Source of the DNA: a virus
Virus record (IMG/VR): IMGVR_UViG_3300043823_000609
Coordinates: 1-23,331 of that record
Length of the DNA stretch: 23,331 nt
Reading direction: 5' to 3' (one strand)
Shown here: positions 387 through 18,930 of the stretch, piece after piece
Numbering within the stretch: position 1 is the first letter of the stretch
Layout of the letters: each line of letters begins with the position of its first letter
The notes under the pieces: generated by a model
What the model was told of the DNA's origin: nothing
The model's database searches: none
What the model saw: only the letters and a program-made list of their open reading frames with translations
Made by a program: the position numbers and the translations under genes

Positions 387-392
387 AGGTAT

Positions 393-399
393 GACAGTC
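393..399 (-). promoter_or_regulatory. Start-associated heptamer before the C1q-like tail gene
   Basis: Coding strand GACTGTC lies 6 nt before the ATG at 386. This copy is the reverse complement of the usual GACAGTC, so the core is best written GACWGTC. Confidence 0.5.
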
Positions 400-410
400 C
401 CGCCGGGAAG

Positions 411-2588
411 CTATGGCGCCAGTGGGTAGATCCCGATGGGCGGGAACTGGTCGGCTGCGAGCTGCACCTGGCCGCTGACCACGGTCTCGGCGTGACCATC
501 CTCTTGGACGTGGATATCCGCACCGTCCCAGGACGGGACCTTGGCGCCGGGCACAAAGAAGAGAGCGGCGTTCCAGGCGGGAACTGTGCTAAGCGTAATG
601 GTCCACTCGCCCACCGTGAAATCGAAAGAATGCTCAATGCCTTCGATGAGCGCGAAGGTCGAGAGATTGCCACCGAAGTCCACGTGGGCAGGCAGGTTGA
701 TGTAGACGTTGCGCCATATCTCAAGGGTCGCGATTGCGTGCAATGCGTTTGCGTAGTCGGCGCTGGTGGACGCGAACTGAGACAGGTAGGCCCACGGCTT
801 GAAGGTCACTGTGTCTACGCGCGTTCGTTCGACGTCGTAGCGGTTGACGAAGGTCAACAGGACGTTGCGCACCTCGACGTCGGTCAGGTAGTTGAGCGTG
901 CCGGGCCAGTGGAAGGTCTTCTGCCCAAAGCCACCCGTACGCCCGGGGATTGACGCCTGGGGAGACGGGGAGTCCACGATGACCGGGTTGGACGCACCGC
1001 GGCTGCCCTCGGCAGCAGTCCACAAGTCCTGGTCCGTGTTCGAGATGGTGGCCTTGACGACTGGGACGACGCCGGGGCCAACCGTCGGACCCGTGGTAGT
1101 GGTGCCCAGCGTTAGCCAGGTGCCCGGCGTGGACGCTGCCCACGAGCGGTCGAGAAAGTTGATCTTGCCGGACCCGTCGACAAAGAGCTGACCGAGCTCG
1201 TCGAGGGTCGTCTGCTCCAAGTCGGCACGCACCGAGCGCGACCGGGCGTTGGCAGCGTCAGGCTCGATGAGAACGGACTGGCCCGGCATGATGTAGCGGT
1301 CGAGGGCAGGTGCTCCGAGGTTGATGAGCTGCAGGTTCACCCATTCCCCTGTCCGTCGCGACTCGGGATACACGAAACCCCACCAACCCGTGCGGACGTC
1401 TACTGGGGTACTCGACGTGCTGATGTCAGCCGTCGGGTTGCCACCAATCACCGATGCAGAAACCGCGTGATCAAAGAGCGCAATGTCACCAACTCCCCCG
1501 TACCAAGGGGAGTAGACCATACCCTTTCCCGGTCCAGTGTGGCCCATTACGACGAGGTTGGATGCGGGGATGACCATGCCCGAGGTTGAGCAGGTCCCAA
1601 CAACCGTTCCGTTCAGGTAGAGGGTCATGGTTGATCCATCTCGAACGAGCGTGAGCATCTGCGTGACGTTCACGTCGAATGGAACAGAGCTCGTGATGGT
1701 CTGCACGCGAGCCCCGGCGGCGTTGTAGGCGGCAAAGCGCGGGTACCACTTCTGGGAGAGGAATACGGCATCGAGCGCCCAACCACTCGTTCCATTGGTG
1801 GTAGAGGCTATGAGAAGGGGATTGACCAGCGGTAGAGCAGAAGAGTTGTCGAGCAATACGAGGGCATTGAACGTCCATGCTGAGCTGGCCATCGTGGTCT
1901 TCGAAATCGAGTTGCAGGTGAGTGTGTCGGCTTCCAAGTTGAGCTCTGGACGCGGCGTAGTCTCTGTGCTCGATGTTAGGTAGTTGTCCTGGATAAAGGC
2001 GAACGAGCCATCGCGGGCGTTACCCGAGGCGTCATAGGCGGCGAAGTTTTGCACGCTCTTGTTAGAGATAGAAGTCATTGAGTTGTCGTCGCATGGATAC
2101 CAGAACAACGCGCCGTTTAACCGGTACTGAGTACCCAAGTAGTTAGGGTCCATGTAGGCGTCGGTGGCCGCCTTAAGTTGGTCGTAAGCAACGCAGGTGA
2201 AGTCCATGAAGCCGGCTTGCGACCATTCTTTGGGTCCCCACTCGCCGATGTAGCCGGTGAAGATCGGCACCCAGCCATACGAACTACCGGCGAAGACCTG
2301 GTATGTCAGAGGCACGTCGATGGATCCGTATGGCAGGATGCTGTTGCTGTTGGACCAGCCGCCTCGGTTTGGTGTGAGGCGCCCGTCGTAGTTCTTCAGC
2401 GTGAGCGTGCACTCGCCCGCATCGGGGATCTGGAGCTCGTGGTTGGTGCCTCGGTGCACGGTGGCCTGGGTGACGTAGTCGCTGATGTCCAGCCAGTCGC
2501 CAGACGGGATCGTCGAGATGCGCACCCGACCGTAGCCAGGTGCGATGAGAATACGCGCGCCAGCGCCGATACCGGGTGCGGGGATCAT
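411..2588 (-). CDS. Minor tail protein / tail hub with LamG-like insert
   Basis: This 725-residue protein follows the tape measure gene, and its ATG overlaps the tape measure stop (ATGA). Residues 1-160 look like the first half of a tail-tip hub: beta-rich, with GRLTPNRGG near 69-77 and VPIFTGYIGEWGP at 107-119. Residues about 162-380 look like a LamG/concanavalin-type jelly roll: WYPCDD at 163, WTFNALVLL at 238, LTLVRDGSTMTLYLNGTVVG at 312-331 and GGVGDIALFD at 364-373. The C-terminal part returns to hub character, ending in IEGIEHSFDFTVGEWTITLS. Hub proteins of this type seal the tail tip and start host contact; a LamG insert would add glycan binding. The tail position is firm. The insert is inferred from sequence pattern. 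Confidence 0.8.
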   Translation of the reverse strand: MIPAPGIGAGARILIAPGYGRVRISTIPSGDWLDISDYVTQATVHRGTNHELQIPDAGECTLTLKNYDGRLTPNRGGWSNSNSILPYGSIDVPLTYQVFAGSSYGWVPIFTGYIGEWGPKEWSQAGFMDFTCVAYDQLKAATDAYMDPNYLGTQYRLNGALFWYPCDDNSMTSISNKSVQNFAAYDASGNARDGSFAFIQDNYLTSSTETTPRPELNLEADTLTCNSISKTTMASSAWTFNALVLLDNSSALPLVNPLLIASTTNGTSGWALDAVFLSQKWYPRFAAYNAAGARVQTITSSVPFDVNVTQMLTLVRDGSTMTLYLNGTVVGTCSTSGMVIPASNLVVMGHTGPGKGMVYSPWYGGVGDIALFDHAVSASVIGGNPTADISTSSTPVDVRTGWWGFVYPESRRTGEWVNLQLINLGAPALDRYIMPGQSVLIEPDAANARSRSVRADLEQTTLDELGQLFVDGSGKINFLDRSWAASTPGTWLTLGTTTTGPTVGPGVVPVVKATISNTDQDLWTAAEGSRGASNPVIVDSPSPQASIPGRTGGFGQKTFHWPGTLNYLTDVEVRNVLLTFVNRYDVERTRVDTVTFKPWAYLSQFASTSADYANALHAIATLEIWRNVYINLPAHVDFGGNLSTFALIEGIEHSFDFTVGEWTITLSTVPAWNAALFFVPGAKVPSWDGADIHVQEDGHAETVVSGQVQLAADQFPPIGIYPLAP

Positions 2589-5551
2589 CGGCGCAGTTCC
2601 CTACCAGACCCGCCGTTTACCTGGCTGCGCCGGCTCGCGACCTTGGATAATTCTTGGTAGAAGCTCTCCAAGTCCTGGACGCCGTTGATTGTCAGCTGAT
2701 TGATGATGATGTTTCCCGTGCCCATAGTGGAGACCGACGCGACGGGCTTGGACGGTAAGCCAGTGAGCGCAAGGCCGCCATGGGTCTCGGCCTGCTTGAG
2801 CAGGTTGGCCATGTCATAGGTGTGGTGGCTGATCTTGATAAGCCATGGGGTCATGTCGCGGGTGTTGAGACTGATGTTGTTGCTGCTGTTGCTGCTCCCG
2901 CCGCCACCGAACAGGCCGCCGAAGAAGCCACCGATCGCAGAGCCGATGCCGTGCGTGATGTTGCCTACCATGTGCAGGCCGCCGTTCACGAGGTTGTTGG
3001 CCGCGCTGCCGAGCGCGCCGAGCACGTGGCCGCCAAGGTGCCAGAGGCCCTTGGCTACATCGGCGGTCTTGTGTGCGATCGCCGAGGCCGTGCTGGCGCC
3101 CCACTTGGCGACGTCCTTGATCCCGTGCCAGACGTGCTTGGCGGTCTGGCCAACGAAGTGGTCGATCTGCTTGTGCCACTTGATGTAGGCGGCGGTGGCT
3201 CCTGCGATTGCAAGCGACACACCGAGGGTCTCGGGACCAAGGGCAGCGCCCGCGGCCATCACTCCACCCTCGGCAGCAGCCTCGCCGCCACCTACCACGG
3301 CAGCCTCCTCCACGCCAGTAGCAGCGTCACCGGCAAGTGCGTCACCAGAGCCACCCTTGAACAAGTTGCCGATCTTGGAGAAGAGCCCCTTGCCCTTGCC
3401 GAAGATGTTCTTGGCCTTGCCCAGTAATCCCTTGATGATGTTCTTAGGGTTGAGGGCGTCTTTCATCTTGCCGAAGAAACCCTTCTCGGCGTCATTTTCG
3501 AGGGTCTTCTCGGCGTCCTTCTCCAAGCCACCACCGAGTCCGCTTCCAAGTCCATTGTTCATTTTCTCGGCAGCGGCCATCATGAGCTCGGCAGCACGCA
3601 TCATCGTGGCGGCTGACCCGCCAGATGTGCTGCCGCCACCAAAAACGTCATTTTCGACATCCTTACCAATACCGAATACGCGCTTGAACATGCCGCCCCA
3701 ACCACCAGCCTCCTTGGCCGCCTTGACGTCCTTGAGCCAGTGGTACGCCTTGAAGCCCTTCGCAAACGCCCAGAATCCACCGGCGCCAGCCGTCAGGCCA
3801 ACTGCACCAATCCCCAGCCCTTCCATGATGGCCGGGTGCTTGGCAAGGGAGCCGATGAGGTTGGAGAACCATTTCAGCGGCCCTCGCACAAGACCCCAAA
3901 GGGTCTTGCCAAACGAGGTCATGGCACTTTGCGCGGCCAACTCCGCTTGCTTTAGTCCAAACTTGGCGGTCTTGCGGACCGAGTCCATGCCCGTGATGTC
4001 CTTGGTGTTCTTACCTGCAGCTTGGATGGCAGCGATGTTGGACAGCGTCATTGCATAGTGAGACCCCGTAGTTTCCATGAGGGTCTGCGCACTGGAAATG
4101 TTTCCTGTTGCAGTGTTGAGCGCGGCCATGAATGTCTGAACTGCGGGACCACCGCTTTTGATCAGGTCATTGAAGCCGTTGGCCTTGTCAAAAAGCGCCT
4201 TGAACTGCATGGCCTGGGTGTAGTTTGCACCCGTACCGATGTAGTTTTTGCGGAACTGTGAGTAGGTGAGCTGACCGGACGCATACTCCTGCATTGCGGC
4301 GCGGGCGTCTGGCGAGGCAGCAGCCATCATGGCGGCGAGGTCCTGGCTCGCGGACTTGGACTGCTTGTAGGCGCTGAAAACAACATCGCCGTTCTTGCCA
4401 AGGTGCTGTGCGACAGCGCTGGAGATGTACTGGAAGGTCTGAGGAAGCCCCTGCTGCTTGACCATGTTCATGACCTGGGTCTGGTCAAGTCCAAGCTGGC
4501 CCCACTCGGACACCATCTTGGTTGTGGGGTTCGACATGGTTCGCAAGGACTGGCGAATATATGTGGCGGCTCGGGCAGGGCTCTGACCCATCTGTGTCAT
4601 AGTCGCCAACATGCCAAGCACTTGGGGCAGCGGGATCCCCATTGACCCTGCAAGCGGCACAATCGTTGCCAGCACCGGATTCAGGTCGTCCATGGTCATC
4701 TTGCCGTGGGCTTCGGTAGCGATGATTTCGTTACCGGTACTATTGATCTGACCCTTCGTTCCCTTCATTCCGTAGCTGTCCAGGATGGAGGTCAAGGCGT
4801 TCACACTGGACTGGGCGGTGGTGTTGCCGACCCATCCCATCTGCTGACCCGCGCGCACTATGTTGATGCCGCTCATGCCATGGAAGCCTGCGGAGTTGGC
4901 GTAGTAGGCCGCCGCAAGTGTGTCGGACTGGGAGGTGGCATTCGAGACGCTGGATTGCAGCAGCAGTGAGTTATCCATGCCAAGGTTGCGACGGAGTTCG
5001 CCCGCACTGGTCGCAAGGCGGTTGATGCCGTACTCCCAGTTGGAGAACGACTTGATGGAGAACCAGCCGCCGATGATGTCTCCGATTGCCAGGCTCTTGA
5101 ACATGCGTCCCGCCCGTGCTGCGCCATTCTCGACGGCGGTGCCCCAGCTGCTCGCGCTTGCTGCGGAACGATCGAAGGCGGCTCCTTGCGCGGCGATGTA
5201 GGGCACGCTCGAGCCGATCTTGGTGCCAAGCGCCTCATGCTGGGCGGCGGCGGCATCGGCGGCAGCACCCGACTGGCCGATCTTGGTGGCCAGGGTGGCG
5301 TGGGCGTAGCGAGAGGTAGCTGCGCTGTCTGCGGCCCCGAGGTTGGCGGCGGCCAAGCGGTCCGATGCAGCGGTGGCGACGTCAGCTGACCCCGCAAGGG
5401 TGTCGGCTGCACCGCTTGCGGCCTCGACCGAGCCGGCCATGCGGTCGGCCGCGCCGGCAGCCTTGTCGAGGGAGCCAGCAAGCGTGTCGAACTGACCAGC
5501 CGCCTCGGCGGCGTTGGTAGTGACGATGATCTCGATCGGGTCGATGGCCAT
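2585..5551 (-). CDS. Tail tape measure protein
   Basis: At 988 residues this is the longest gene in the window, and it lies just downstream of the tail chaperones. Residues 1-130 are Ala-rich helical repeats, probably coiled coil. Residues about 150-430 resemble the TP901-type tape measure core (NWEYGINRLATSAGELRRNL, TMTQMGQSPARAATYIRQSL, NPTTKM). Hydrophobic stretches near 570-600 and 770-792, and a Gly/Phe-rich patch near 870-895, are typical of the membrane-active part of these proteins. The C-terminus is a short beta segment (IIINQLTINGV) and helix. At roughly 1.5 angstrom per residue, the usual scaling, a tail of about 150 nm would be expected. Its ATG overlaps the previous stop by one base (TAATG), and its stop overlaps the hub start (ATGA), so translation is probably coupled. 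Confidence 0.92.
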   Translation of the reverse strand: MAIDPIEIIVTTNAAEAAGQFDTLAGSLDKAAGAADRMAGSVEAASGAADTLAGSADVATAASDRLAAANLGAADSAATSRYAHATLATKIGQSGAAADAAAAQHEALGTKIGSSVPYIAAQGAAFDRSAASASSWGTAVENGAARAGRMFKSLAIGDIIGGWFSIKSFSNWEYGINRLATSAGELRRNLGMDNSLLLQSSVSNATSQSDTLAAAYYANSAGFHGMSGINIVRAGQQMGWVGNTTAQSSVNALTSILDSYGMKGTKGQINSTGNEIIATEAHGKMTMDDLNPVLATIVPLAGSMGIPLPQVLGMLATMTQMGQSPARAATYIRQSLRTMSNPTTKMVSEWGQLGLDQTQVMNMVKQQGLPQTFQYISSAVAQHLGKNGDVVFSAYKQSKSASQDLAAMMAAASPDARAAMQEYASGQLTYSQFRKNYIGTGANYTQAMQFKALFDKANGFNDLIKSGGPAVQTFMAALNTATGNISSAQTLMETTGSHYAMTLSNIAAIQAAGKNTKDITGMDSVRKTAKFGLKQAELAAQSAMTSFGKTLWGLVRGPLKWFSNLIGSLAKHPAIMEGLGIGAVGLTAGAGGFWAFAKGFKAYHWLKDVKAAKEAGGWGGMFKRVFGIGKDVENDVFGGGSTSGGSAATMMRAAELMMAAAEKMNNGLGSGLGGGLEKDAEKTLENDAEKGFFGKMKDALNPKNIIKGLLGKAKNIFGKGKGLFSKIGNLFKGGSGDALAGDAATGVEEAAVVGGGEAAAEGGVMAAGAALGPETLGVSLAIAGATAAYIKWHKQIDHFVGQTAKHVWHGIKDVAKWGASTASAIAHKTADVAKGLWHLGGHVLGALGSAANNLVNGGLHMVGNITHGIGSAIGGFFGGLFGGGGSSNSSNNISLNTRDMTPWLIKISHHTYDMANLLKQAETHGGLALTGLPSKPVASVSTMGTGNIIINQLTINGVQDLESFYQELSKVASRRSQVNGGSGRELRR

Positions 5552-6009
5552 TACGCGAACACCTCCTCGAGGACCGCCTCAGCGATGGCGGTAGCTGCCT
5601 CGGTGGCAACGGCTGCGCCCTTGGCCATGTAGTGCTTGCCGGGGATAGTCACCTGGCTCTTGCGGTACCAGATGCCCGAGTTGCGCGGCGCCTGGAACCG
5701 GAGGCCGTTGGGCGTCTTGGCACGAATGACTGCGCCCTCTTCCTGGACGCGCGAGTAGATGAGGGCGGTGCCGACGACCACGCGAGCGGCCTCGACCGAC
5801 TCGGTGACCGTGGCCGTGTGGATAGACGCGGCGAGGCGACCCGTCGGGGTGCCAGAGACGTAGGGCTTGATGGCTTCGCGGGCTTCCAGCTGGGCCATGC
5901 GTCCGACCTCTTGGGAGATCTTCACGGCAGCAGTGCGCATGAGCTCTGGCGCGGCCTCGAAGCGACTGACGGCCTCGCTCAGGCCCTTGATGTCAACAGT
6001 GAACGCCAT
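5551..6009 (-). CDS. HK97 gp10-like tail completion / morphogenesis protein
   Basis: This is a 152-residue protein. Helical N-terminal features (VDIKGLSEAVSRFEAAPELM), a central TGRLAASI and YSRVQEEGAVI, and a Pro-Gly-Lys-His-Tyr near the end match the pattern of HK97 gp10 and Mu gpG-like tail completion proteins (TGxLrxSI, YaxyvExG, pfl). It ends one base into the tape measure ATG. The start at 6009 is preferred over an in-frame ATG at 6033. The 6009 start gives a protein beginning MAFTVDIKG, as the family usually does, and has a TACTGTC-type heptamer and AGGA just upstream, while 6033 has no ribosome site. Its place between tail chaperones and tape measure is unusual, because this family normally sits before the tail tube gene. 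Function is inferred. Confidence 0.7.
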   Translation of the reverse strand: MAFTVDIKGLSEAVSRFEAAPELMRTAAVKISQEVGRMAQLEAREAIKPYVSGTPTGRLAASIHTATVTESVEAARVVVGTALIYSRVQEEGAVIRAKTPNGLRFQAPRNSGIWYRKSQVTIPGKHYMAKGAAVATEAATAIAEAVLEEVFA

Positions 6010-6015
6010 GCTTCC

Positions 6016-6022
6016 TACTGTC
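6016..6022 (-). promoter_or_regulatory. Start-associated heptamer before the gp10-like gene
   Basis: Coding strand GACAGTA lies 6 nt before the ATG at 6009, with AGGA directly after it. This helps decide 6009 over 6033 as the start. Confidence 0.45.
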
Positions 6023-6050
6023 CGCACAAGCAAGGCGACGGCACGGTCCC

Positions 6051-6449
6051 CTAGAGACCCTCACCTCGGAACGCCAGGAACCAGTCGGCCAGGCTGGGTG
6101 CAACGCTGCGTGCCTGCTCGTACGTCCAGCCAAACTCGCCACGCAGCTGCGCAACGCGTGCGGCGTCACCAGGTGAGTAGGGAAGGTCGTAGACCTGCTC
6201 GACTGTGAGCGGGCGGTCGCCGAAGTATTCGTCGGGAGTGAGGGCGGCTACCAGCGGCGAGCGCGTGCCGGTCATCGGGTCGATGGCTGTGCGCTGTGGG
6301 AAGGTGCAGACCGCGTAGATCTGGTACTCGACAGGGACTGATGCAGCCCTTAGCTGGCACTCTGCGGTGCAGGAGCTGCCGTCGTCGTGTCGGCCTCCGT
6401 GCCACTTGACCCAGCGCTTGGCTGACTTGACGCCGTGGTAGCCGCGGCT
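6051..6449 (-). CDS. Tail assembly chaperone, frameshifted extension (gpT-like)
   Basis: This frame is open from just after a TGA at 6456-6458 down to the TAG at 6051. It lies in the -1 frame relative to the upstream chaperone. It has no ribosome site of its own; an in-frame ATG at 6275 exists but would give only 74 residues with no Shine-Dalgarno. A -1 shift on CCCAAAA would fuse 119 residues of the upstream protein to 132 residues of this frame, giving a 251-residue product. The extension has a basic start (KSAKRWVKWHGG) and a well-formed C-terminal part (LTPDEYFGDRPLTVEQVYDL, FGWTYEQARS). In lambda and many siphoviruses the analogous gpG and gpGT load the tape measure protein and recruit tail tube subunits. 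The gene order here (tube, chaperones, then tape measure) agrees. Confidence 0.8.
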   Translation of the reverse strand, partial: SRGYHGVKSAKRWVKWHGGRHDDGSSCTAECQLRAASVPVEYQIYAVCTFPQRTAIDPMTGTRSPLVAALTPDEYFGDRPLTVEQVYDLPYSPGDAARVAQLRGEFGWTYEQARSVAPSLADWFLAFRGEGL

Positions 6450-6805
6450 TTTGGGTCAGTCGCCTCGGTCTCCATCGTCGGGTCGAAGTCCGGGTAGAGC
6501 TTGGGCAGCTCGTCCTTGACGGCGACCCAGATGGCATTGCTGTCACCGATGGTGATCTCGTCCCAGGATGCAGCCTCGACGGACGGAACCGGCAGGGCCG
6601 AGCCGTCAGCGTTGGTGAAGTCCCAGTTGACGATGAGGTAGCGCAAGATGACGTCCTTCTGGAACAGGGTCCAGTTGGCGACGCTGGCGTTCTCGTCGTA
6701 GCCGGCCGTGAGCTCGGCCATGAGCTCGCGCTGCTGACGGTTGGTCAGAGCGGTCGCCTCACGACACGAGACGGTGTGGCCGGATGGCAGTGCAACAGTG
6801 ATCAT
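6350..6805 (-). CDS. Tail assembly chaperone (gpG-like)
   Basis: This 151-residue protein starts MITVALPSGHTV. It has a helical middle (TNRQQRELMAELTAGYDENA, DVILRYLIVNWDF) and an Ala/Thr/Ser-rich tail, a common profile of first tail chaperones. It lies 22 nt after the tail tube gene. Its start has a strong Shine-Dalgarno, AGGAGG at 6811-6816, inside a short inverted repeat (GTAG at 6806-6809 and CTAC at 6815-6818) that could partly hide the site. It is one of only two uncoupled late genes in the window that use a normal ribosome site rather than the GACAGTC-type heptamer. Ribosomes that do not slip at 6449-6455 stop at 6350 and make this short form, which is normally the more abundant product. 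Confidence 0.85.
   Translation of the reverse strand: MITVALPSGHTVSCREATALTNRQQRELMAELTAGYDENASVANWTLFQKDVILRYLIVNWDFTNADGSALPVPSVEAASWDEITIGDSNAIWVAVKDELPKLYPDFDPTMETEATDPKAAATTASSQPSAGSSGTEADTTTAAPAPQSAS
6449..6455 (-). promoter_or_regulatory. Programmed -1 frameshift slippery site CCCAAAA
   Basis: The coding strand reads GAC CCA AAA GCC in the upstream frame, which is the X XXY YYZ form C CCA AAA. Slipping back one base re-pairs as CCC AAA and continues with AGC CGC GGC in the extension frame. The -1 frame is closed by TGA directly 5' of the heptamer, so a -1 shift can join the frames only between here and the stop of the upstream gene at 6350. No strong downstream hairpin was established by eye. 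Confidence 0.85.
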
Positions 6806-6827
6806 GTAGTCCTCCTACTGGTTGGGG

Positions 6828-7892: not shown

Positions 7893-8227
7893 TGGTTGGC
7901 TCCAGAATTGGTCGTGTTGCTAGAAGTTGAGGCGGTCGTGTTGCTCGAAGCTGTGGCCGTGGTGTTGTCAGTCGCAGGCGTGGTGGCCGTCGAGGTAGCG
8001 GTGCTCTTGGTCGTCGTGGGCGTGTTAGCAGCCTTGGTGGAAGCAACTGTGGCGACAAACGGAGTGGTGACGATGGTCACATTGGACGAAGCCGCGGCCG
8101 TCGGCATGTTGGCCGATGCTTGGGCGGTCGCTTGGGCGGGGGTGATTGCACCAGCGGTTTTGTTGGAAGGGTCGATCTCGCCGACGCCAGGAACGAACCG
8201 CTTTTCAGAGAAGGTGTACTCGGACAT
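7889..8227 (-). CDS. Small Thr/Ser/Ala-rich protein of unknown function
   Basis: The protein is 112 residues. The first 30 (MSEYTFSEKRFVPGVGEIDP and on) look globular. From about residue 50 it is almost entirely Thr, Ser, Ala and Asn, with repeats such as TATASSNTTASTSSNTTNS. The composition resembles a flexible, mucin-like linker. The frame continues far upstream without a stop, but the start at 8227 is preferred: a GACAGTC heptamer lies 6 nt before it, and the upstream stretch overlaps the gene at 8275-8814 in another frame. Its stop overlaps the tail tube start (ATGA), so it is probably made in step with the tube protein. A structural role, such as a tail or head decoration, is a guess. 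Confidence 0.7.
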   Translation of the reverse strand: MSEYTFSEKRFVPGVGEIDPSNKTAGAITPAQATAQASANMPTAAASSNVTIVTTPFVATVASTKAANTPTTTKSTATSTATTPATDNTTATASSNTTASTSSNTTNSGANQ

Positions 8228-8233
8228 GGCTAT

Positions 8234-8240
8234 GACTGTC
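8234..8240 (-). promoter_or_regulatory. Start-associated heptamer before the Thr/Ser-rich gene
   Basis: Coding strand GGGACAGTC lies 6 nt before the ATG at 8227. There is no Shine-Dalgarno in the 46-nt gap between this gene and the previous one. Confidence 0.55.
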
Positions 8241-8274
8241 CCGCCCTGTGCCGCTCGCGCAAGGGGGCAGACAG

Positions 8275-8814: not shown

Positions 8815-9752
8815 CAGATGCCCCAGTTAGGGTCAACTTCGAAAACATTGGTCTCTTTGTTCAAGATGAAGCCCGGCGGGACGAGCCAGCCCTGCTTCTC
8901 GGGGGCGCTGACCGAGACGACGTTGGCGTCGTTCACACCGCCCATACGCTGGCCGCGACTGAACTCGGCAATGGACTTGCGCAGGCGCGTAAGGCCGTCG
9001 GAGTAGGTGGCGCGCAGGTGCTCGATGCGTCCCCATCGGTTCTCGCGGTGCGAGGCGGGCGTGTAGGCCATCTCGATCTGGGCAGCGACGCCGTGGGTGG
9101 CCACGCGCTTGGCGGCGGCCTTCAAGGTGTCGAGCGCAGCCAGGCGCTCGGGGCTGGTGGCCTGGGCCGAGAGTGCGTCGGGGTCACCGGCGAAGGCTGC
9201 GACCTCGGAGCATACGTCGACGATGAGCGTCCAGACGGTGGTCGCCGTCGGGTAGGTCGTCTGGTTGAAGATGCCCGAGGCGTCCTGTGCGAGGTTGGGC
9301 ACCATCATCGAGACCTCTTCGATGCTGGGCTGCCAGGTAAAGGGCGAGTAGGCCACGCCAGCCACGCGCAGCTGGACCTCGGCGAGGTAGGTGCTCGTAG
9401 CGTCGGAGTTCTGCCACTGGGCGCGCAACGTGTAGCCAGTTCCGGGGTTGAGCAGCGAACCGGGCACGAGCTGGACTATGACCGCGCCGTCCACATACGC
9501 AGCGTTGGGCAGCGCCGGCCCGTTCGAGCCGTCCGGGTTGATGAGCGCGACAACGACATTGATCGGCTGGGTGAATGCAGGGGCTTCGAGAGGCTCAAGG
9601 TTCCCCAAGTAGTCGTGCTGGATCGGCAGCTGGGCCGAGGCGTCGATACCTATGGCGATGGTCTCGTTGACCGAGATGTCGATGATTGGGTTCGTCTCGG
9701 GAACGAATCCCGTAGCGCCGAGGACTGCCGTGATGTCGGGAAGAGTGCTCAT
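8811..9752 (-). CDS. Head-tail connector with N-terminal beta-sandwich domain
   Basis: The protein is 313 residues from the preferred ATG at 9752. Residues about 15-145 are rich in beta strands and turns, with an Ig-like look (TQPINVVVALINPDG, TGYTLRAQWQNSDATSTYLA). Residues about 155-290 are helical (SIEEVSMMVPNLAQDASGIF, ATTVWTLIVDVCSEVAAFAG, LDTLKAAAKRVATHGVAAQI), as in HK97 gp6-type adaptor proteins that bind under the portal. Adaptors of that type are usually near 100-120 residues, so the N-terminal half would be a fusion. It follows the terminator hairpin after the capsid genes, and its stop overlaps the next GTG start. An ATG at 9797 in the same frame is disfavoured because it starts inside that hairpin region and has no ribosome site. 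Confidence 0.65.
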   Translation of the reverse strand: MSTLPDITAVLGATGFVPETNPIIDISVNETIAIGIDASAQLPIQHDYLGNLEPLEAPAFTQPINVVVALINPDGSNGPALPNAAYVDGAVIVQLVPGSLLNPGTGYTLRAQWQNSDATSTYLAEVQLRVAGVAYSPFTWQPSIEEVSMMVPNLAQDASGIFNQTTYPTATTVWTLIVDVCSEVAAFAGDPDALSAQATSPERLAALDTLKAAAKRVATHGVAAQIEMAYTPASHRENRWGRIEHLRATYSDGLTRLRKSIAEFSRGQRMGGVNDANVVSVSAPEKQGWLVPPGFILNKETNVFEVDPNWGIW

Positions 9753-9758
9753 GTTGTA

Positions 9759-9765
9759 TACCGTC
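9759..9765 (-). promoter_or_regulatory. Start-associated heptamer (degenerate) before the connector gene
   Basis: Coding strand GGACGGTA lies 6 nt before the ATG at 9752. It differs from the core at two positions; position and flanking GG are kept. Confidence 0.35.
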
Positions 9766-9799
9766 CGTGGGTAGAGGTTGTGTGCAACCAGACGCAAGA

Positions 9800-9836
9800 A
9801 GCCCCCCTGGTCCGGAGGACGGGGACCAGGGGGGCT
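9800..9836 (-). terminator. Hairpin after the capsid genes, probable terminator
   Basis: A perfect 14-bp inverted repeat (AGCCCCCCTGGTCC at 9800-9813, its complement at 9823-9836) with a 9-nt loop, extended by CAAG/CTTG outside one unpaired base. It lies 33 nt after the stop of the small gene following the capsid gene. The run after it on the minus strand is only TTCTTG, so it may be a leaky terminator that reduces transcription from the abundant capsid gene into the tail genes. Confidence 0.75.
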
Positions 9837-9868
9837 CTTGCTACCAGCGGCTTGGCCGCTTTGTTTCG

Positions 9869-10051: not shown

Positions 10052-11028
10052 TATGCGATGCCGTTCACCCAGCAGCCCGCGAGCGGGTTCTGCACGTAGG
10101 GGGCGAAGTTGTGAGCCATCGACACGACCCAAGTCTCGGCAGGCGAGATGTTGGGGGTGTTGAAGACTGACTGCGCGCGCAGCGGAAGCGTCTCAGCGAG
10201 GCCACCGAGCAGGGCGAGGTCAGCGACCAGCGCACCACTCTCGAAGGCGTTGCCGATGGTCAGCTCGGTCGGAACCGTGATGACTTCGAGACCCGCGATC
10301 TTGCCGAGGACACCCTCGTCGGAGACGGTGGTCGTCTCACGCGAAAGAGCAAGCAAGGTCTGGATCGGGGCGCTCGACGCGAGCAGAGCGGCGTTGAGTT
10401 CGCTCATGACGATCGCGTTCGGGCGGAAACCGAGACGGGCGTCCTTGATGGTCGCGCGAGCGGTCATCAGAGGAGCCAAGACCTGGTCGGCCGAGGTGGC
10501 GCCAACGAAGGTCGTGCCAGCGACAACGGTGCGGGCACTCGTGCCGGTAGCCGGGATGTCGGCAACCAGAGCGGAGACCGACAGGGTGTCGGCGCTGTCC
10601 GAGTAGCTGTTGGACAGCTGACGGAGGGCGGTGTCCACGGCGGAACGCTTGTAAGCGAGAACGTCTTCCCAGGTGACGAGAGACTTAGCGGCGATCTTCA
10701 CCGTCGCGCCCATCGAGGGGGTCGTCTCACCAGTCTGAGCCAGCGGGAAGTCCGAGCCCGGGGTGATGACACCGTAGGGGGTGTCGCCCGAGATCGCGGC
10801 GGCCTTCTGGGCCACGCTCTTCTGGACGGCAAACGCACCGTTTACAGCGTTGATGCGCTGGGTGAACAGCTTGTAGGTCAGCACGTTCTGGGACAGGTAG
10901 TCACCAAGGATGGCCAACACGGCCGGGGTGCTGTTGAGCAGACCGACGATGTCAGCGACGTCACCGGTGGGTGGCGCCTGCGTGTAGTCCCAGCTGATAG
11001 CTGAGTGGGTGTTGACGGGCTCGGACAT
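10051..11028 (-). CDS. Major capsid protein (HK97-like fold)
   Basis: The protein is 325 residues. Features seen are a helical N-terminal region, a central spine-helix segment (TWEDVLAYKRSAVDTALRQL at about 118-137), a segment LGFRPNAIVMSELNAALLAS typical of the peptidyl-domain of encapsulin/HK97-fold coats (phxivms), and a C-terminal strand set (AETWVVSMAHNFAPYVQNPL). It sits downstream of the protease/scaffold and upstream of connectors, where the major capsid gene belongs. The start has a good Shine-Dalgarno (AAAGGAG, 10 nt upstream), one of only two uncoupled late genes that do, which fits the need for high expression. No long cleavable N-terminal delta domain is seen, so scaffolding is probably supplied by the protein encoded just upstream. 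Confidence 0.88.
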   Translation of the reverse strand: MSEPVNTHSAISWDYTQAPPTGDVADIVGLLNSTPAVLAILGDYLSQNVLTYKLFTQRINAVNGAFAVQKSVAQKAAAISGDTPYGVITPGSDFPLAQTGETTPSMGATVKIAAKSLVTWEDVLAYKRSAVDTALRQLSNSYSDSADTLSVSALVADIPATGTSARTVVAGTTFVGATSADQVLAPLMTARATIKDARLGFRPNAIVMSELNAALLASSAPIQTLLALSRETTTVSDEGVLGKIAGLEVITVPTELTIGNAFESGALVADLALLGGLAETLPLRAQSVFNTPNISPAETWVVSMAHNFAPYVQNPLAGCWVNGIA

Positions 11029-11043
11029 TGCTGTCTTGCTCCT

Positions 11044-11559
11044 TTACTTGAGGGCCCGGAACCGGGCGATGATGGAATCCACGGACTGCTGACCGTCGGA
11101 CAACTTGGCCGAGCCCAGGGCAGTGGTAGGGATTGTGCCGGCGGCACACTTGGCGACGAAGGAACGGCAAGCCGTCTCGTTGGCGTCGAACAGGGTGCGC
11201 ATGTCGTCGAGCTGCGCGGGGGCGATACGGCCCTCGACCTCGCAGGCATTGCGCAAGAAGGCTTCACGCGTCTCAACGCGCTGGGCCTCACGAAGGTTGG
11301 CGAGCTCGGTCTGGGCGCCGCGAAGCTGTACCAGGTTGTCGCTCGTGATGATCTCGAAGCCGACAGGGAGCTGCGAGGCGAGAACCGCGACCTGCTGTGC
11401 AGCGGCGGCGGCAACCTCAACGGTTTCGGCAACTTCCTCGACGACTTCGTCGGTGGTGGTCTCGTCGATGGCGAGCTCGGTCTCGGCGTTAGCCTCGACA
11501 GTCTCGTCCGCGATGACCTGGTCCACGACGGTCTCGATGTTCTCGGTGGTCTCTTCCAT
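11044..11559 (-). CDS. Putative internally started scaffold protein
   Basis: Within the protease gene and in its frame, the ATG at 11559 is preceded by GGACAGTC with a 7-nt gap, the same arrangement as at the start of the protease gene itself. Starting there gives a 171-residue protein (METTEN-like acidic start MEETTENIETV, helical repeats, C-terminal DSIIARFRALK) consisting of just the predicted scaffold region. Lambda makes its scaffold Nu3 in the same way, from an in-frame start in the protease gene C. The separate product is inferred from the heptamer and this precedent; no ribosome site is present. Confidence 0.5.
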   Translation of the reverse strand: MEETTENIETVVDQVIADETVEANAETELAIDETTTDEVVEEVAETVEVAAAAAQQVAVLASQLPVGFEIITSDNLVQLRGAQTELANLREAQRVETREAFLRNACEVEGRIAPAQLDDMRTLFDANETACRSFVAKCAAGTIPTTALGSAKLSDGQQSVDSIIARFRALK

Positions 11560-12399
11560 GACTTCTGACTGTCCAGAGGTGGCGGCCCGCGTCAAGGACC
11601 CTGGCGCAGAGATCCGAGAGAGCAACGCGGCCGAGCTCGGCACGGGTCCGTCCTCGAAGCTGTCGGCGTCGGCGACGTAGGTCACCATGACGCGCTCGGG
11701 GGCGCCGAAGGTGACGAGGCCGTCACCGTTGTCGGTCCACTCCACACGGTAAAGCTCACCGTCGGTGCCCTCTACGATGATGAAGTCTGACCAGACCTCG
11801 CGCACATAAGCCCACGAGGCCTGGCCGAGCTGGTCGTAGAACTGGTCTACAACGGCGTCAATACGGACGCTGGCTTTTACTGACATGTTTTCCTCCATAC
11901 GGGTGAACAGGACGGGCTTGGATGGGCCCTTTGCGGCGACCTTGCTCTCGAACAAGTCGTAGAGGTCGTTGAGCTCTTCGATGGCCGGCAGCTGCTCACC
12001 GAGCAGGGCCACGCCAGTCATGACGAACGGGTAGCGCGCGGCGCGCGGGCTCGTCTGGTAGTTGAACGCGCCCTCGATGGAGCGAGCCGGGTAGGCGATC
12101 GGTGCGATTGCGGCGAGCGATGTCGGGACCACAAGGTCACCAACCAGGACAACGCCGTCGCCGACCTCGCTGACGCGGAGGTTGGTCACGCGGCCAACGG
12201 CCGGTGCGCTGTCGCCGAGCTTGCCGTCGTGGCCGAGCTTGATGACCGGGTTGCGCAGCTTGGGGTCGAGGAATGCGGCGACCGCACTGTCGAAGTGCTC
12301 GCGGGTGAAGGTGACGTCACCGGTCGAGGCGTGGTAGGTGCCGCTGCGGGCAATCTCGACGCCGGGGATCGTCGTGGTGGGGATGGTCGGGGTAGGCAT
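11044..12399 (-). CDS. Prohead protease (Mu gpI-like) with C-terminal scaffold region
   Basis: The product is 451 residues from the ATG at 12399. Residues 1-160 resemble Mu gpI-type capsid proteases: NPVIKLGHDGKLGD with a candidate catalytic His at 57, PAVGRVTNLRV, and PARSIEGAF with a candidate Ser at 107. A middle domain at about 172-245 has alpha/beta character (WAYVREVWSDFIIVEG, YRVEWTDNGDGLVTFG). Residues 281-451 are acidic and helical, rich in Glu, Thr and Val, then ELANLREAQRVETREAF, as expected for a scaffold. The protease would cleave the scaffold inside the prohead. The start at 12399 has a GACAGTC heptamer 7 nt upstream; an in-frame ATG at 12435 has no start signal. Two internal starts may give shorter products. 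Confidence 0.8.
   Translation of the reverse strand: MPTPTIPTTTIPGVEIARSGTYHASTGDVTFTREHFDSAVAAFLDPKLRNPVIKLGHDGKLGDSAPAVGRVTNLRVSEVGDGVVLVGDLVVPTSLAAIAPIAYPARSIEGAFNYQTSPRAARYPFVMTGVALLGEQLPAIEELNDLYDLFESKVAAKGPSKPVLFTRMEENMSVKASVRIDAVVDQFYDQLGQASWAYVREVWSDFIIVEGTDGELYRVEWTDNGDGLVTFGAPERVMVTYVADADSFEDGPVPSSAALLSRISAPGSLTRAATSGQSEVMEETTENIETVVDQVIADETVEANAETELAIDETTTDEVVEEVAETVEVAAAAAQQVAVLASQLPVGFEIITSDNLVQLRGAQTELANLREAQRVETREAFLRNACEVEGRIAPAQLDDMRTLFDANETACRSFVAKCAAGTIPTTALGSAKLSDGQQSVDSIIARFRALK
11567..11573 (-). promoter_or_regulatory. Start-associated heptamer inside the protease gene
   Basis: Coding strand CTGGACAGTCAG lies 7 nt before the in-frame ATG at 11559. It encodes Ser-Gly-Gln-Ser in the long product, just before the acidic scaffold region. 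Confidence 0.5.
11887..11896 (-). promoter_or_regulatory. Internal Shine-Dalgarno in the protease gene
   Basis: Coding strand GGAGGAAAAC is followed directly by an in-frame ATG at 11886, with GGAGG 5 nt from the start codon. A 280-residue product (MSVKASVRID onward) covering the middle domain and scaffold could start here. It is as good a ribosome site as any on the late strand, and it falls at a domain border (residue 172 of the long form). Confidence 0.45.
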
Positions 12400-12406
12400 C
12401 GTTGTT

Positions 12407-12413
12407 GACTGTC
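12407..12413 (-). promoter_or_regulatory. Start-associated heptamer before the protease gene
   Basis: Coding strand GGACAGTC lies 7 nt before the ATG at 12399, in the 41-nt gap after the portal gene. There is no Shine-Dalgarno. Confidence 0.55.
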
Positions 12414-12440
12414 CTGTCTCTGGGCGCTCGGGCAAGGGCC

Positions 12441-13751
12441 CTAGAAGTTGGAGGCGCCGGGGTTGTCGGCCTTGGGCTCGGGCGGCATGTGCGTCGGCGG
12501 CTTGACCAGCGCGCCGGTGCGCGGAGCGTCCGGGTCGTCGGCGGCGGGCATGCCGAAGAGCTGACGGACGTGGGTCTCGAGGCCCTTGTCCGGGGTGACC
12601 ACGCCGGCCTCGACGAGCAGGCCGAGCACTGCGGGCGGGATGTTGCTGTCGACGCCGATGAGGCCCGGAACCAGACGCGGGATCTTGGCGTCCTCACCCT
12701 GGCTCCATACGGTGAGCGGGCGGATGACCTGCTGGGTGAACTGGTCGCCCAGGTCGTTGGCCATTGCCTGGCAGCTGTCACGGAACAGGTCGATCTGGAC
12801 TTCGCCCAGCGCGTGCGAGCCCTCGGACGAGGCACCCAGCTCCAAGAACATGGCCAGCGTCGACTTGGCGATCTGCTTGTTCTGGTACTCGATGTGCGGG
12901 AGGATGTCGGGCAGTTTGCCCTCGACGCCAACGAGGCGGAACTCGCTGTCGCCCTTGGTCACGACCGAGGCGGTGTCTCCGGCACGCAGGGCGCGGCCGG
13001 CCTTCTCGGCGTTGGACACCTGTTCGTCGGTGGCACCCTCGGAGAGCTTGAAGTGAGGGATGCCCATGCCGTTGCGCTCATCGGTCATGACGAGGATGCG
13101 TTCAAGGCGGTCCTTCAAGCTCCACGGCTTGTATGCCGAGCGGAGCATCGAGACACCCTGGGGCACGGCGCCTATGCCGCCAACGCGATACCAGCACATG
13201 CGCGCACCCGGGATAGCACCGGTTCCCGACTGCCACACTTCGAGGATCTTCCCCTGGGCGTCGGTGATGATGCGGGTGATGGTCGAGGGGTGGCGCACGT
13301 CGAGGCGTGCGAGGCGGACCATGCCATCTTCAATGGCCACGGTGATCTCGAAGGGCATGTGCCCGTAGGTCGTAGCTTCGAGGGCCTCACGAAGGTGCTG
13401 TGTGAATGAGACGCGGGTCGCCTCGGCAACCACGCTCGCCTCCTCACCCAAGATGGGTAGGCCCAGGTCGGCAGCCAGTGCAGCCACGAACTTGGGGTCG
13501 GCGCCGGCCGGGTCAATGCGCCATGGCACCTTGCGGATGGTCAAGTGAATAGCGCGGGTGGCGGCGTCGATCTGGCTGTCGGTGCGCATCTGGGAGAAGA
13601 TGCGGACGTTGCCCGGCCACGTGAGGGAAGGGTTGAGCTCGTCGATGTTCCACGGTGTGAGCGACTGCCCATTGACAGGATAGACACCAGTGGCGTAGCC
13701 GGATGGGTCGGTGAAATCGGCGGGGTTGGAGTCGTACACGATCGGGTCCAT
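12441..13751 (-). CDS. Portal protein (DUF935 / Mu gp29-like)
   Basis: The protein is 436 residues and lies between large terminase and protease, the expected place for the portal. An early segment QMRTDSQIDAATRAIHLTIR followed by VPWRIDP is the characteristic start of DUF935-type portals. Later segments are ALEATTYGHMPFEITVAIED, a central LKDRLERILVMTDERNGMGI, and FLELGASSEGSHALGEVQID, which matches the 'lgq..~ GS~Al~~vq~~' pattern of the stem-side region. The C-terminus is Pro-rich and probably flexible. Twelve subunits would form the ring through which DNA enters and leaves the head. Pairing with a Mu-like protease agrees with this portal family. The start has a TACTGTG-type heptamer 7 nt upstream and no Shine-Dalgarno. 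Confidence 0.88.
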   Translation of the reverse strand: MDPIVYDSNPADFTDPSGYATGVYPVNGQSLTPWNIDELNPSLTWPGNVRIFSQMRTDSQIDAATRAIHLTIRKVPWRIDPAGADPKFVAALAADLGLPILGEEASVVAEATRVSFTQHLREALEATTYGHMPFEITVAIEDGMVRLARLDVRHPSTITRIITDAQGKILEVWQSGTGAIPGARMCWYRVGGIGAVPQGVSMLRSAYKPWSLKDRLERILVMTDERNGMGIPHFKLSEGATDEQVSNAEKAGRALRAGDTASVVTKGDSEFRLVGVEGKLPDILPHIEYQNKQIAKSTLAMFLELGASSEGSHALGEVQIDLFRDSCQAMANDLGDQFTQQVIRPLTVWSQGEDAKIPRLVPGLIGVDSNIPPAVLGLLVEAGVVTPDKGLETHVRQLFGMPAADDPDAPRTGALVKPPTHMPPEPKADNPGASNF

Positions 13752-13758
13752 GCGTCCC

Positions 13759-13765
13759 TACTGTG
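13759..13765 (-). promoter_or_regulatory. Start-associated heptamer before the portal gene
   Basis: Coding strand CACAGTA lies 7 nt before the ATG at 13751, in the 40-nt gap after the large terminase gene. Confidence 0.4.
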
Positions 13766-13791
13766 CAGAGATAGTCGCTGGGTGCCAGTTG

Positions 13792-15411
13792 TTAAAACTG
13801 CATCGTGAGGATGTTGCTCTCGTCGCTGGCGTGGCCGATGTCTACCGACAGGCCACCCGTGGCCCGGGGGCGCCAGAGTGCCAGGTTCAGGGCGTCCGCG
13901 AGGTCGGGTGAACGGCGCAGCTTGGCTCGCACATCTTCCTTGCTTTCGGCGCGCCGTTGGCCAGAGGGCTTGCCGCTCTCCTTGTGTACGTCCGTGGCCG
14001 TAAGCTCGGCGGCGAGCATGTTGAAGTCCTTCTCGTTGATGCCGCCCAGCTCGTTCTCGGACATGTCGAGGTAGCCCATGCGCAGGTAGTCGGCCGTGGT
14101 GAACCAGAGCTGGTCGCGCATGCGTGTGTAGCGCTTGGGGTCATCGGCGCTGGCCGAGGCGTTGTTGGGGAAGTAGTCCCGGCCCTTTACATAGTGGGTC
14201 TTGGAGAGCTCGGAGGTGAGGCCGACGCCAAGACCGGTCTCGTCGTAGACGAGCTTGTAGCCGTCTTCGAGCGCCTTGATCGCGAGAGCAGCCGTCTCGT
14301 GTATCTGTAACCCGCGGTGTCCCTCGATGCGCTGGACGCGGCGCCCGTCCACGAAGCAGATGGCGGTCCGGTCGGCGCTTCGTCCCGGGCCGGCGATGTC
14401 GATACCAGCCCAGCGGCCGGTGAGGGCTGGCAGGTGCGGCGGGAGCATCGGGAGCTTGTCAAGGCCGGCGCCACCGCGGCGGGCCAGCATCATGCCGTCC
14501 ATGCTGATGAGCGTGCGGTCGGACATGGGAGGGAAGTCGCCCATGATGATGGACGACCAACCGGGCGACCCGATGCCCCACTCTTCCTTGGCCTCGTGGA
14601 TGTCGATGAGCGTGACGGCACCGGGGAACGGCTCGTGCAGTGCCTCGATCTCTTCGTTGCGCTCGCCGTAGGGCAAGTCGAGGAACTGCTTCCAGGACAT
14701 GCCCAGCTGCTTCAAGCCTTCGACGATGTTGGGGTGAGTGCGCGGCGACATGTGCAGGGTCGAGTAAAGCTTCTGCTTGGAGTGGAACATGTCGTAGAAC
14801 GGGCCGCTCGTGACGGTCGGGTTGCCAATCGTGAGCAGTCGGGCGTTCTTGCCCTTCAACATCGTGGCCGCGGCGGTGTAGATATAGGCGGGCACACCGG
14901 GCCCCTCATCGAGGATGATGAGCAGCATCCCACGGGTGTGCTGTCCCTTGAAGCCTTCTTCGCTATCAGCGGTGCGACCAACGGCAAAGTGCTCGGGGCT
15001 GATGTCCCAACGCGGCTCCTTGGGGGTGAGCCGCCCGCGCAGGCGCGGCGAGGCGGTAGCGACCCGCGTGCGGATTTCCTTCCACAACAGGTCGGTCACC
15101 TGCTTGAAGCTGGGAGCCGAGGTGTAGACGATGGCAGGCTCGAAGCATTCCATCGCCCAGGTAGCAACCACGGACGAGATGAAGGTCTTGCCCACACCGT
15201 TGCCGGCGCGCACGGCGGTGCGGCGGTTGTCTCGGACGCTCTCCAAGACCTTGACCTGGTCGGGCGTGAGTTCGAGGCCGAGGCGCTCGCGGCCGAACGC
15301 GGCGGGGTTGCGCTTCCACTCCTCATTGCGGCGACGAAGGATCTCGGCCTGGGCGCGTAGGGCGAGGAGTTGGCGCTGCTCTTCGTTGAGGTCGTTGAGC
15401 GACTGCGTCAC
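13792..15411 (-). CDS. terL: Terminase large subunit
   Basis: The protein is 539 residues with both expected domains. The ATPase carries a Walker A AGNGVGKT at 69-76 and a Walker B LLIILDEG at 163-170, with the catalytic Glu following the Asp. A coupling segment LLTIGNPT lies at 192-199. The nuclease carries GIDIAGPG (Asp338), LVYDETGLGVG (Asp390) and SPDLADALNLAL (Asp503, Asp506), the RNase H-type acidic set. It packages DNA into proheads through the portal and cuts the concatemer. All motif residues that can be judged by eye are intact. The ATG overlaps the small terminase stop (ATGA), so the two are translationally coupled. Identity is firm; the packaging mode (cos or headful) cannot be told from this protein by eye. 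Confidence 0.97.
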   Translation of the reverse strand: MTQSLNDLNEEQRQLLALRAQAEILRRRNEEWKRNPAAFGRERLGLELTPDQVKVLESVRDNRRTAVRAGNGVGKTFISSVVATWAMECFEPAIVYTSAPSFKQVTDLLWKEIRTRVATASPRLRGRLTPKEPRWDISPEHFAVGRTADSEEGFKGQHTRGMLLIILDEGPGVPAYIYTAAATMLKGKNARLLTIGNPTVTSGPFYDMFHSKQKLYSTLHMSPRTHPNIVEGLKQLGMSWKQFLDLPYGERNEEIEALHEPFPGAVTLIDIHEAKEEWGIGSPGWSSIIMGDFPPMSDRTLISMDGMMLARRGGAGLDKLPMLPPHLPALTGRWAGIDIAGPGRSADRTAICFVDGRRVQRIEGHRGLQIHETAALAIKALEDGYKLVYDETGLGVGLTSELSKTHYVKGRDYFPNNASASADDPKRYTRMRDQLWFTTADYLRMGYLDMSENELGGINEKDFNMLAAELTATDVHKESGKPSGQRRAESKEDVRAKLRRSPDLADALNLALWRPRATGGLSVDIGHASDESNILTMQF

Positions 15412-15968
15412 TTGATCCCCCGGGCGAGTTGTTCGAGCTCGTCGATGGACAGCGCCTCCACGCCGATGTTTACGTTGAGGTTCTTGCTCTCGGTCTTCTT
15501 GGCAGGCTCGGCGCCGTTGATCTTCACGATGGCGAGCAGGGCCTGGCGCTCCTCGGCCAGGGCGAGAACGGCAGCGGTGGTCTTGCCGGCTGCGAGTGAC
15601 AGGCGGGCGGACGATGCGGCGTCAGCGGCGATGCGGCGCAGGCGGGCAGTCGCGTCGTTCACGATCTGGGCATTGCGGTGCATGGTCTCTGGGTGAGACA
15701 GCCAGTGCTTGCTCCACTCGTCGAGGCGGCGCTTGACCTCGGACGGCTTCAAGCCGACTTCGCGGCCGATCTGGGTGGGAGACAGTCCGAGTGTAGAGAG
15801 CTCCAAGATGCGCTCCCAGAGCTCGGCGTTGGCCGTCTCGGGGTCGAGCGGGTCGAAGCGCTGGGTCGTGTTGACGACGGGCGTGAAGTCTGGGTCTACG
15901 GGGTGCTCAACGACGCGGGGCGTCACCTCGTCTGGCACGACGATCTCGGCAGGGATGATCTCTGGCAT
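15408..15968 (-). CDS. terS: Terminase small subunit
   Basis: From the ATG at 15968 the protein is 186 residues. After an extended acidic N-terminus, residues about 46-88 form a helix-turn-helix region (NAELWERILELSTLGLSPTQ, then IGREVGLKPSEVKRRLDEWS). This is followed by an Ala-rich helical oligomerisation segment (about 97-150) and a short C-terminal tail ending LSIDELEQLARGIK. This is the usual plan of small terminases, which bind the packaging site and recruit the large subunit. It is immediately upstream of terL and overlaps it by four bases. The frame stays open upstream to 16301, but that extension is Pro/Arg-rich, crosses a 13-bp hairpin and has no start signal. The 15968 start has a heptamer 6 nt upstream. 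It is the first gene of the late operon. Confidence 0.88.
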   Translation of the reverse strand: MPEIIPAEIVVPDEVTPRVVEHPVDPDFTPVVNTTQRFDPLDPETANAELWERILELSTLGLSPTQIGREVGLKPSEVKRRLDEWSKHWLSHPETMHRNAQIVNDATARLRRIAADAASSARLSLAAGKTTAAVLALAEERQALLAIVKINGAEPAKKTESKNLNVNIGVEALSIDELEQLARGIK

Positions 15969-15974
15969 GCCTGT

Positions 15975-15981
15975 GACTGTG
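15975..15981 (-). promoter_or_regulatory. Start-associated heptamer before terS
   Basis: Coding strand CACAGTC lies 6 nt before the ATG at 15968. It decides this start against the in-frame ATG at 16301. Confidence 0.5.
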
Positions 15982-16014
15982 CGGAGGGGGCGGCAGTTTT
16001 CACCCCAGACGCAA

Positions 16015-16048
16015 CGAGACCCCCTCCCTAGCCCAGGAGGGGGTCTCG
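16015..16048. terminator. Strong hairpin upstream of terS
   Basis: A perfect 13-bp inverted repeat (CGAGACCCCCTCC at 16015-16027, complement at 16036-16048) with an 8-nt loop. It lies 47 nt before the terS start on the minus strand. No T run follows on either strand, so it may be a terminator without a tail, a barrier to transcripts entering the late operon, or a structure tied to packaging. Confidence 0.5.
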
Positions 16049-16379
16049 CCATACCAGGAGCCGCTCGATGTAAAGCGGGACGATTGCTCGTCGTAGATGA
16101 GTGTCCGGTGTGTTTTGCATAGTGCAAGGGTTTCTTGATTTTCTTTTGCCTTGTCTGGCAGGGGGCGACACATAGGCCTGATGATTTGTGCTTGCGCTCT
16201 CGTGAGGGACCGGTGCAATGCCGCCGCCGCCCTACCGAGATACAAGGGGGGGGGGGCTTGCCAACGCCGGGGGCTGCCAACGCCGCGCCCTCGTTCGCCA
16301 TAGCGCGCCGTCACCATCTGCCACGCGGTCACTCGGTGCGGCGGTGCGCGTCCGATCACCCGATCACCCGCCCATGTCA

Positions 16380-16413
16380 CCCGATCGGGGGATTTCCAAG
16401 AATCCTCTTGACA
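16380..16413 (+). promoter_or_regulatory. Operator-like palindrome and -35-like box before the early genes
   Basis: CCCGATCGGG (16380-16389) is a perfect 10-bp palindrome following two CCGATCACC direct repeats. TTGACA, a consensus -35 hexamer, lies at 16408-16413, about 75 nt before the first early ATG. No good -10 box is found at 16-18 nt spacing; that position is occupied by the orphan GACTGTC. A host sigma-factor promoter controlled by a repressor is possible but not shown. Confidence 0.35.
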
Positions 16414-16429
16414 TTTGTCGCCTCCCCCT

Positions 16430-16436
16430 GACTGTC
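16430..16436 (-). promoter_or_regulatory. Orphan copy of the start-associated heptamer
   Basis: GGACAGTC on the minus strand (GACTGTCC on plus), with no start codon at 6-7 nt. Some 15 nt further is GGAGG with an ATG at 16414 opening a 16-codon frame. This may be a leader peptide or chance. Confidence 0.3.
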
Positions 16437-16488
16437 CTTTTCGTCACCTTCGCAAGTCGCGGCGGTGATTTGACTCAGGAGGTCAACG

Positions 16489-18866: not shown

Positions 18867-18930
18867 AGGGAACTGATCACCACACTCTCGCGATGGGCAA
18901 CCGTCGTTTCCCCAGTGATTGCAAGGCTTT

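Follow-up and report, generated by a model that had tools for sequence, protein, structure and literature searches.

Phage virion genes are usually pictured as one long leadered operon. In the lambda C/Nu3 pair, the scaffold is independently expressed from inside the protease gene via internal translation initiation. Sigma-70-type -10 elements are most strongly conserved at two bases, A (position 2) and T (position 6). Actinobacteria commonly use leaderless promoters (PMC3160421, PMC3898074), whose -10 elements have their first hexamer base ~12 bp from the start codon (PMC3160421) or are centred 7-12 bp from the transcription start site (PMC3898074); such promoters have also been predicted in the cluster O mycobacteriophages (PMC4351075). 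In cluster K mycobacteriophages, a 13-bp start-associated sequence, GGGATAGGAGCCC, with an AGGAG (Shine-Dalgarno) core accompanies non-structural genes (PMC3203893), the putative promoters being assigned to a distinct element, the ESAS (PMC11373665). The jumbo phage AR9 carries a phage-specific late-promoter consensus before very many genes, in some cases inside ORFs; these promoters are served by a phage multisubunit RNA polymerase and yield 5' UTRs of 26-491 nt, and hence are not leaderless (PMC5312081).

The stretch of DNA analysed here (the window) is a virus record of 23,331 bases with a virion gene set on the minus strand, comprising a TerL-like protein, a Mu-type portal (PF06074), a head maturation protease with a scaffold-like C-terminus, a major head protein, a probable tail tube, a tape measure and a fibre. 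No family match was obtained for the gene in the small-terminase position, upstream of TerL. The original prediction placed a heptamer close to GACAGTC 6-7 nt 5' of seven late ATGs, with an eighth copy before an internal ATG at 11559. All eight copies are present on the minus strand, and the end of the GACAGT-type hexamer is separated from the ATG by 7-8 nt at each of the eight starts. The accompanying count, of nine late genes that do not overlap the previous gene and seven that carry the motif, is correct, the remaining two having AGGAGG (6805) and AAAGGAG (11028). All four copies of the 9-mer TGACTGTCC (near 8233, 11566, 12406 and 16429) could likewise be located, the copy at 16429 having no associated minus-strand start. 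A feature overlooked at that stage is a second, -35-like box (consensus cTTGCMC), located exactly 16 bp upstream of the hexamer at 8/8 window sites, the -35 hexamer starting 22 bp before the -10 hexamer. The predicted elements, with the associated hairpins, are as follows.

386..421, minus strand: predicted promoter of the tail-fibre-like gene; TGGCGC 421-416, N16, GACTGT 399-394, ATG 386 (heptamer GACTGTC)
6009..6044, minus strand: predicted promoter of gene 6009-5551; GTGCCG 6044-6039, N16, GACAGT 6022-6017, ATG 6009 (heptamer GACAGTA)
8227..8262, minus strand: predicted promoter of gene 8227-7889; TTGCGC 8262-8257, N16, GACAGT 8240-8235, ATG 8227 (heptamer GACAGTC)
9752..9787, minus strand: predicted promoter of gene 9752-8811; TTGCAC 9787-9782, N16, GACGGT 9765-9760, ATG 9752 (heptamer GACGGTA)
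9796..9842, minus strand: GC-rich hairpin without a long U tract, candidate terminator; z = -6.5, separates the head block from the 9752 promoter
11559..11595, minus strand: predicted promoter within the protease ORF; TTGACG 11595-11590, N16, GACAGT 11573-11568, ATG 11559 (heptamer GACAGTC)
12399..12435, minus strand: predicted promoter of the head maturation protease; TTGCCC 12435-12430, N16, GACAGT 12413-12408, ATG 12399 (heptamer GACAGTC)
13751..13787, minus strand: predicted promoter of the portal gene; TGGCAC 13787-13782, N16, CACAGT 13765-13760, ATG 13751 (heptamer CACAGTA)
15968..16003, minus strand: predicted promoter of the gene before TerL; GTGAAA 16003-15998 (weak), N16, CACAGT 15981-15976, ATG 15968 (heptamer CACAGTC)
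16013..16049, minus strand: GC-rich hairpin, candidate terminator; z = -4.7, just upstream of the 15968 promoter
16100..16127, minus strand: predicted variant promoter, TTGCAC-N16-GACACT, no ATG at the expected start
16408..16435, plus strand: candidate promoter for rightward transcription; TTGACA-N16-GACTGT, before gene 16489, which has a leader and an SD site

Taken by itself, the heptamer shows no enrichment in the window (7 matches compared to 4.6 expected, with 7 or more found in 22 of 100 shuffles), and the non-random part is therefore its position in combination with the partner box. The composite TTGCMC-N16-SACAGT-N7/8-ATG yields eight minus-strand matches, corresponding exactly to the eight starts, and none on the plus strand, with 0.09 expected per strand (200 shuffles; mean 0.09, maximum 2). 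As the ATG is part of this pattern, its usage is not independent evidence. Because the composite was derived from the same data, two controls were used: other box spacings, and a matrix built from the window sites only, without the ATG, applied to a related phage. Spacings between 8 and 25 bp other than 16 bp gave at most two matches each, the full set being obtained from 16 bp alone.

The related phage, L003 (IMGVR_UViG_3300021139_000622; 9,061 bp), is the sole close relative found in coat-protein, portal, protease and terminase scans of IMG/VR, with identities of 79% for the coat protein, 60% for the portal and 47% for the protease. The four best matrix matches in L003 score 17.0-21.6 compared to 9.1 for the next, and coincide with the starts of the portal (829-866, orthologous to the 13751 site), the internal scaffold ATG (4094-4132, orthologous to 11559), the 9752 orthologue (5904-5941) and the 8227 orthologue (7390-7427). 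N-termini of the window and L003 proteins align from the motif ATG (e.g. RFVPGVG in the 8227 orthologues). The 16-bp spacers have no evident sequence in common, indicating it is the boxes and not the region that are conserved. The check proposed with the original prediction, to look for the motif in relatives with the same gene order, hence had a positive outcome in this single close relative. A megablast of the window against phage records gave no match, and scans of genome contigs recovered distant portal relatives only. Two composite-pattern scans of IMG/VR returned single scattered matches, with no array recovered outside L003; the array is absent from the distant portal or terminase relatives and from five annotated actinophages.

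Over the 12 sites (8 in the window and 4 in L003), the hexamer is of the G/C-A-C-A-G-T type; its A (position 2), its C and G, and its T (position 6) never vary, and the base directly 5' is G in 12/12. Positions 2 and 6, equivalent to A-11 and T-7 of a sigma-70-type -10, are thus A and T in every site, while position 1 is G or C in 12/12 and never the T of a TANNNT element. The first hexamer base lies 13-14 nt from the ATG throughout, close to the roughly 12 bp expected and in agreement with the spacing of known leaderless -10 elements. For the -35 box, the 16-bp spacer and the third-base G are found in 12/12 sites, the first T in 10/12 and the second T in 8/12, with weak boxes at 15968 and 6009. 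This corresponds to a bipartite sigma-70-type arrangement (TTG -35 box, 16-18 bp spacer).

In both phages, starts with boxes have no SD site, and non-overlapping starts without boxes have one (AGGAGG, AAAGGAG or similar); short AGGA/AGG matches occur near some motif starts. Later genes in each block possess Shine-Dalgarno sites or a stop-start overlap. The protease swaps start class: in the window it has the promoter and lacks an SD site, and in L003 the reverse is the case. An additional gene precedes the L003 protease, which is located mid-block, within the portal block. The sequence itself shows the two boxes, their fixed spacing and position, their conservation in L003 and their exclusion of SD sites.

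A hairpin also occurs at the equivalent place in L003, just upstream of the 5904 site (z = -2.9). The hairpins upstream of the 9752, 15968 and L003 5904 sites are without long U tracts, and we therefore only infer terminator function for 9796-9842 and 16013-16049. Their location just upstream of these three sites suggests transcription may need restarting there.

On the basis of these features, we estimate a probability of approximately 80% that the heptamer is the -10 element of a bipartite promoter (cTTGCMC, 16 bp, SACAGT preceded by G) and that the first gene of each virion block is read from a leaderless mRNA. Promoter identity is here inferred, as are start points, leaderless translation, any role in stoichiometry and the sigma factor that would read the boxes. 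Transcription would start either on the first base of the ATG or 1-2 nt upstream, and the first gene of each block would therefore be carried on a leaderless transcript. In the simplest reading, the boxes mark the first gene of each transcription unit, and the late region would be divided into terS-terL; portal; protease; scaffold with the major coat protein and the next gene; the 9752 pair, directly after the hairpin; the 8227 tail-tube block; the block headed by gene 6009-5551, which contains the tape measure; and the fibre.

The unit starting at 11559 would begin inside the protease ORF. This ATG is protease codon 281, in frame, and a PHROG 2976 match spans residues 281-438. It is presumed to be the start of the scaffold, the in-frame C-terminal product of the protease gene, and the product includes a C-terminal stretch well conserved between the window and L003. 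The box pair is retained within the protease linker, where the protein sequence is otherwise poorly conserved between the two phages. Such an arrangement would allow scaffold and coat protein output in excess of protease. As in lambda, the scaffold is an in-frame C-terminal part of the protease gene; the lambda nested product is obtained by internal translation initiation, whereas the window has an apparent internal promoter. A more far-reaching proposal is that cTTGCMC-N16-SACAGT represents an unfamiliar promoter class, recognised by a sigma factor not yet characterised or an RNA polymerase modified by the phage, that drives nearly all virion blocks leaderless, with the protease-embedded promoter setting scaffold/coat output; this we hold tentatively, at somewhat less than even odds.

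The original prediction had offered three options for the motif. That of a -10 element for leaderless transcripts is supported by the fixed-distance -35 box, the invariant A2 and T6, the lack of SD sites, the two upstream hairpins and the conserved intragenic copy. The other two, an RNA processing site or a non-standard translation signal, would leave unexplained a second box constant at 16 bp combined with an ATG distance of 7 or 8 nt. A promoter with a short leader, where initiation occurs further downstream or upstream and the mRNAs are not strictly leaderless, or where an internal ribosome binding site is used, would share identical promoter evidence, and the plus-strand copy at 16408 does precede a leadered gene with an SD site. 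Against this, the hexamer ends 7-8 nt before the ATG in 12/12 sites with no extended SD sequence between, leaving no room for an RBS-bearing leader, and we consider it unlikely. An RNA motif that initiates translation through the ribosome, a small RNA or a phage protein, as has been proposed for the cluster K sequences, could account for a sequence that adjoins the ATG and stands in for the SD site, with cluster K providing a precedent for position. It is nevertheless very unlikely given the constant second box and varying ATG distance, the lack of the SD core that the cluster K element contains as AGGAG, and a plus-strand copy whose nearest start is 53 nt away and carries an SD site itself.

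Still more doubtful is a regulatory role, with the late-gene copies serving as sites for a dimeric phage repressor or activator. Phages often carry repeated operator-like sites, and GACTGTC is near-palindromic at several window sites, which had led the near-palindromic core to be proposed as a protein dimer site. The dyad is not conserved across sites, with CACAGT replacing GACAGT in 6/12, and it is lost in L003 (GCACAGTA/GCACAGTC), which disfavours the dimer-site reading; moreover, what is conserved is a pair of boxes that is asymmetric and has a fixed orientation to the gene. An activator working with RNA polymerase on these same boxes is possible. Least probable of all is that the motif marks RNA processing, with a long late transcript being cut there to leave leaderless ends: the sites do lie just 5' of start codons, but the -35-like box would be left without a reason and the hairpins upstream of two sites favour new initiation.

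The predicted leaderless promoters resemble the TA-led leaderless genes of Actinobacteria and Deinococcus-Thermus in having a -10 hexamer ~12 bp before the start and no SD site (PMC3160421, PMC3898074, PMC12340547), but differ in that the hexamer is SACAGT rather than TANNNT and the -35 box is strongly conserved at one spacing. Hence, the element would work like a leaderless sigma-type promoter, with TANNNT membership failing at position 1. The cluster O SigA promoters (PL1, PR2, PL2) are few and have canonical SigA-like sequences, whereas in the window a single non-canonical class, with at least eight sites, serves consecutive virion gene blocks. The suggested likeness to the cluster K SAS/ESAS, a short repeat just before the ATG of many genes, holds for position but not for sequence, SD content or gene class (PMC3203893), with GGGATAGGAGCCC and its AGGAG core present in 0/12 sites. 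The virion operon thus appears to consist of several blocks, with transcription restarted at a leaderless promoter for each one and with start classes (promoter or SD) exchanging between relatives. If true, this would provide a direct route to predicting transcription units in uncultured phages, and would imply late translation without Shine-Dalgarno pairing and a -10 specificity without a known cognate sigma factor or activator.

Within positions 1-17000, no canonical housekeeping sigma-70 promoter (at least 9/12 matches to TTGACA/TATAAT) was found, compared to 2.3 expected. The host may belong to the Actinomycetota, judging from weak protein similarity to actinophages. In 396 Actinomycetota genomes, among which the true host may not be included, the composite occurs 27 times compared to 15 in the reversed control, with at most three matches per genome and those three being copies of one repeat; this near-control count argues against a widespread promoter in the sampled hosts. 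Actinobacterial housekeeping promoters often have no conserved TTG -35 (PMC8407463), suggesting either a host unlike those studied or the involvement of another factor. The non-TANNNT -10, together with the near-control count, makes a non-housekeeping sigma factor or phage activator a possible reader of the boxes; candidates include a host sigma factor, a phage factor encoded outside the window, or the host enzyme with an activator. No sigma factor or known regulator was recognised among the window proteins searched, the contig seeming to be incomplete, and a literature search for GACAGT-type -10 elements returned nothing relevant.

The fourth TGACTGTCC copy, at 16429, may be explained by the candidate rightward promoter on the plus strand, which lies 53 nt before the first rightward gene (~0.004 expected per window). 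If functional, it would suggest that a GACTGT -10 is accepted by the reading enzyme already at an early stage of infection, favouring a host sigma factor. The variant at 16127-16100 ranks fourth on the window minus strand with an L003-only matrix, and its transcript would be ~85 nt in length, ending in the 16013-16049 hairpin. The stretch 16127-16010 on the minus strand comprises the variant promoter and the ~85 nt that follow it, in which three hairpins are predicted, the last one strong; located upstream of the gene in the terS position, it is a candidate small RNA or leader, for which no Rfam match was obtained.

Both ends of the window (23070-23331 and 1-386) fall in minus-strand fibre-like sequence, with a repeated collagen-like stretch (period ~190 bp) at the right end. 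The assembly probably broke in the repeat, and the genome may be little larger than the contig. Neither a lysis gene nor a tRNA was recognised in the window. A peptide deformylase gene (PF01327, E = 2e-26) is located at 21327-21785 on the plus strand. The stretch 6805-6051 on the minus strand, in the tail assembly chaperone position, has an apparent -1 frameshift with a slippery site at 6455-6449 (C CCA AAA in frame); beyond this site the -1 frame is open and ends at 6051 (P0016, 132 aa). The plus-strand starts at 18303 and 19198 are without a strong SD site; at 18303, GACACT ends 6 nt before the ATG, with no clear -35 box at 16 bp. GGGAACCGA/CGGTTCCC repeats, both direct and inverted, cluster at 18766-18990; this apparently non-coding stretch, which precedes gene 19198, is possibly an origin or operator region.
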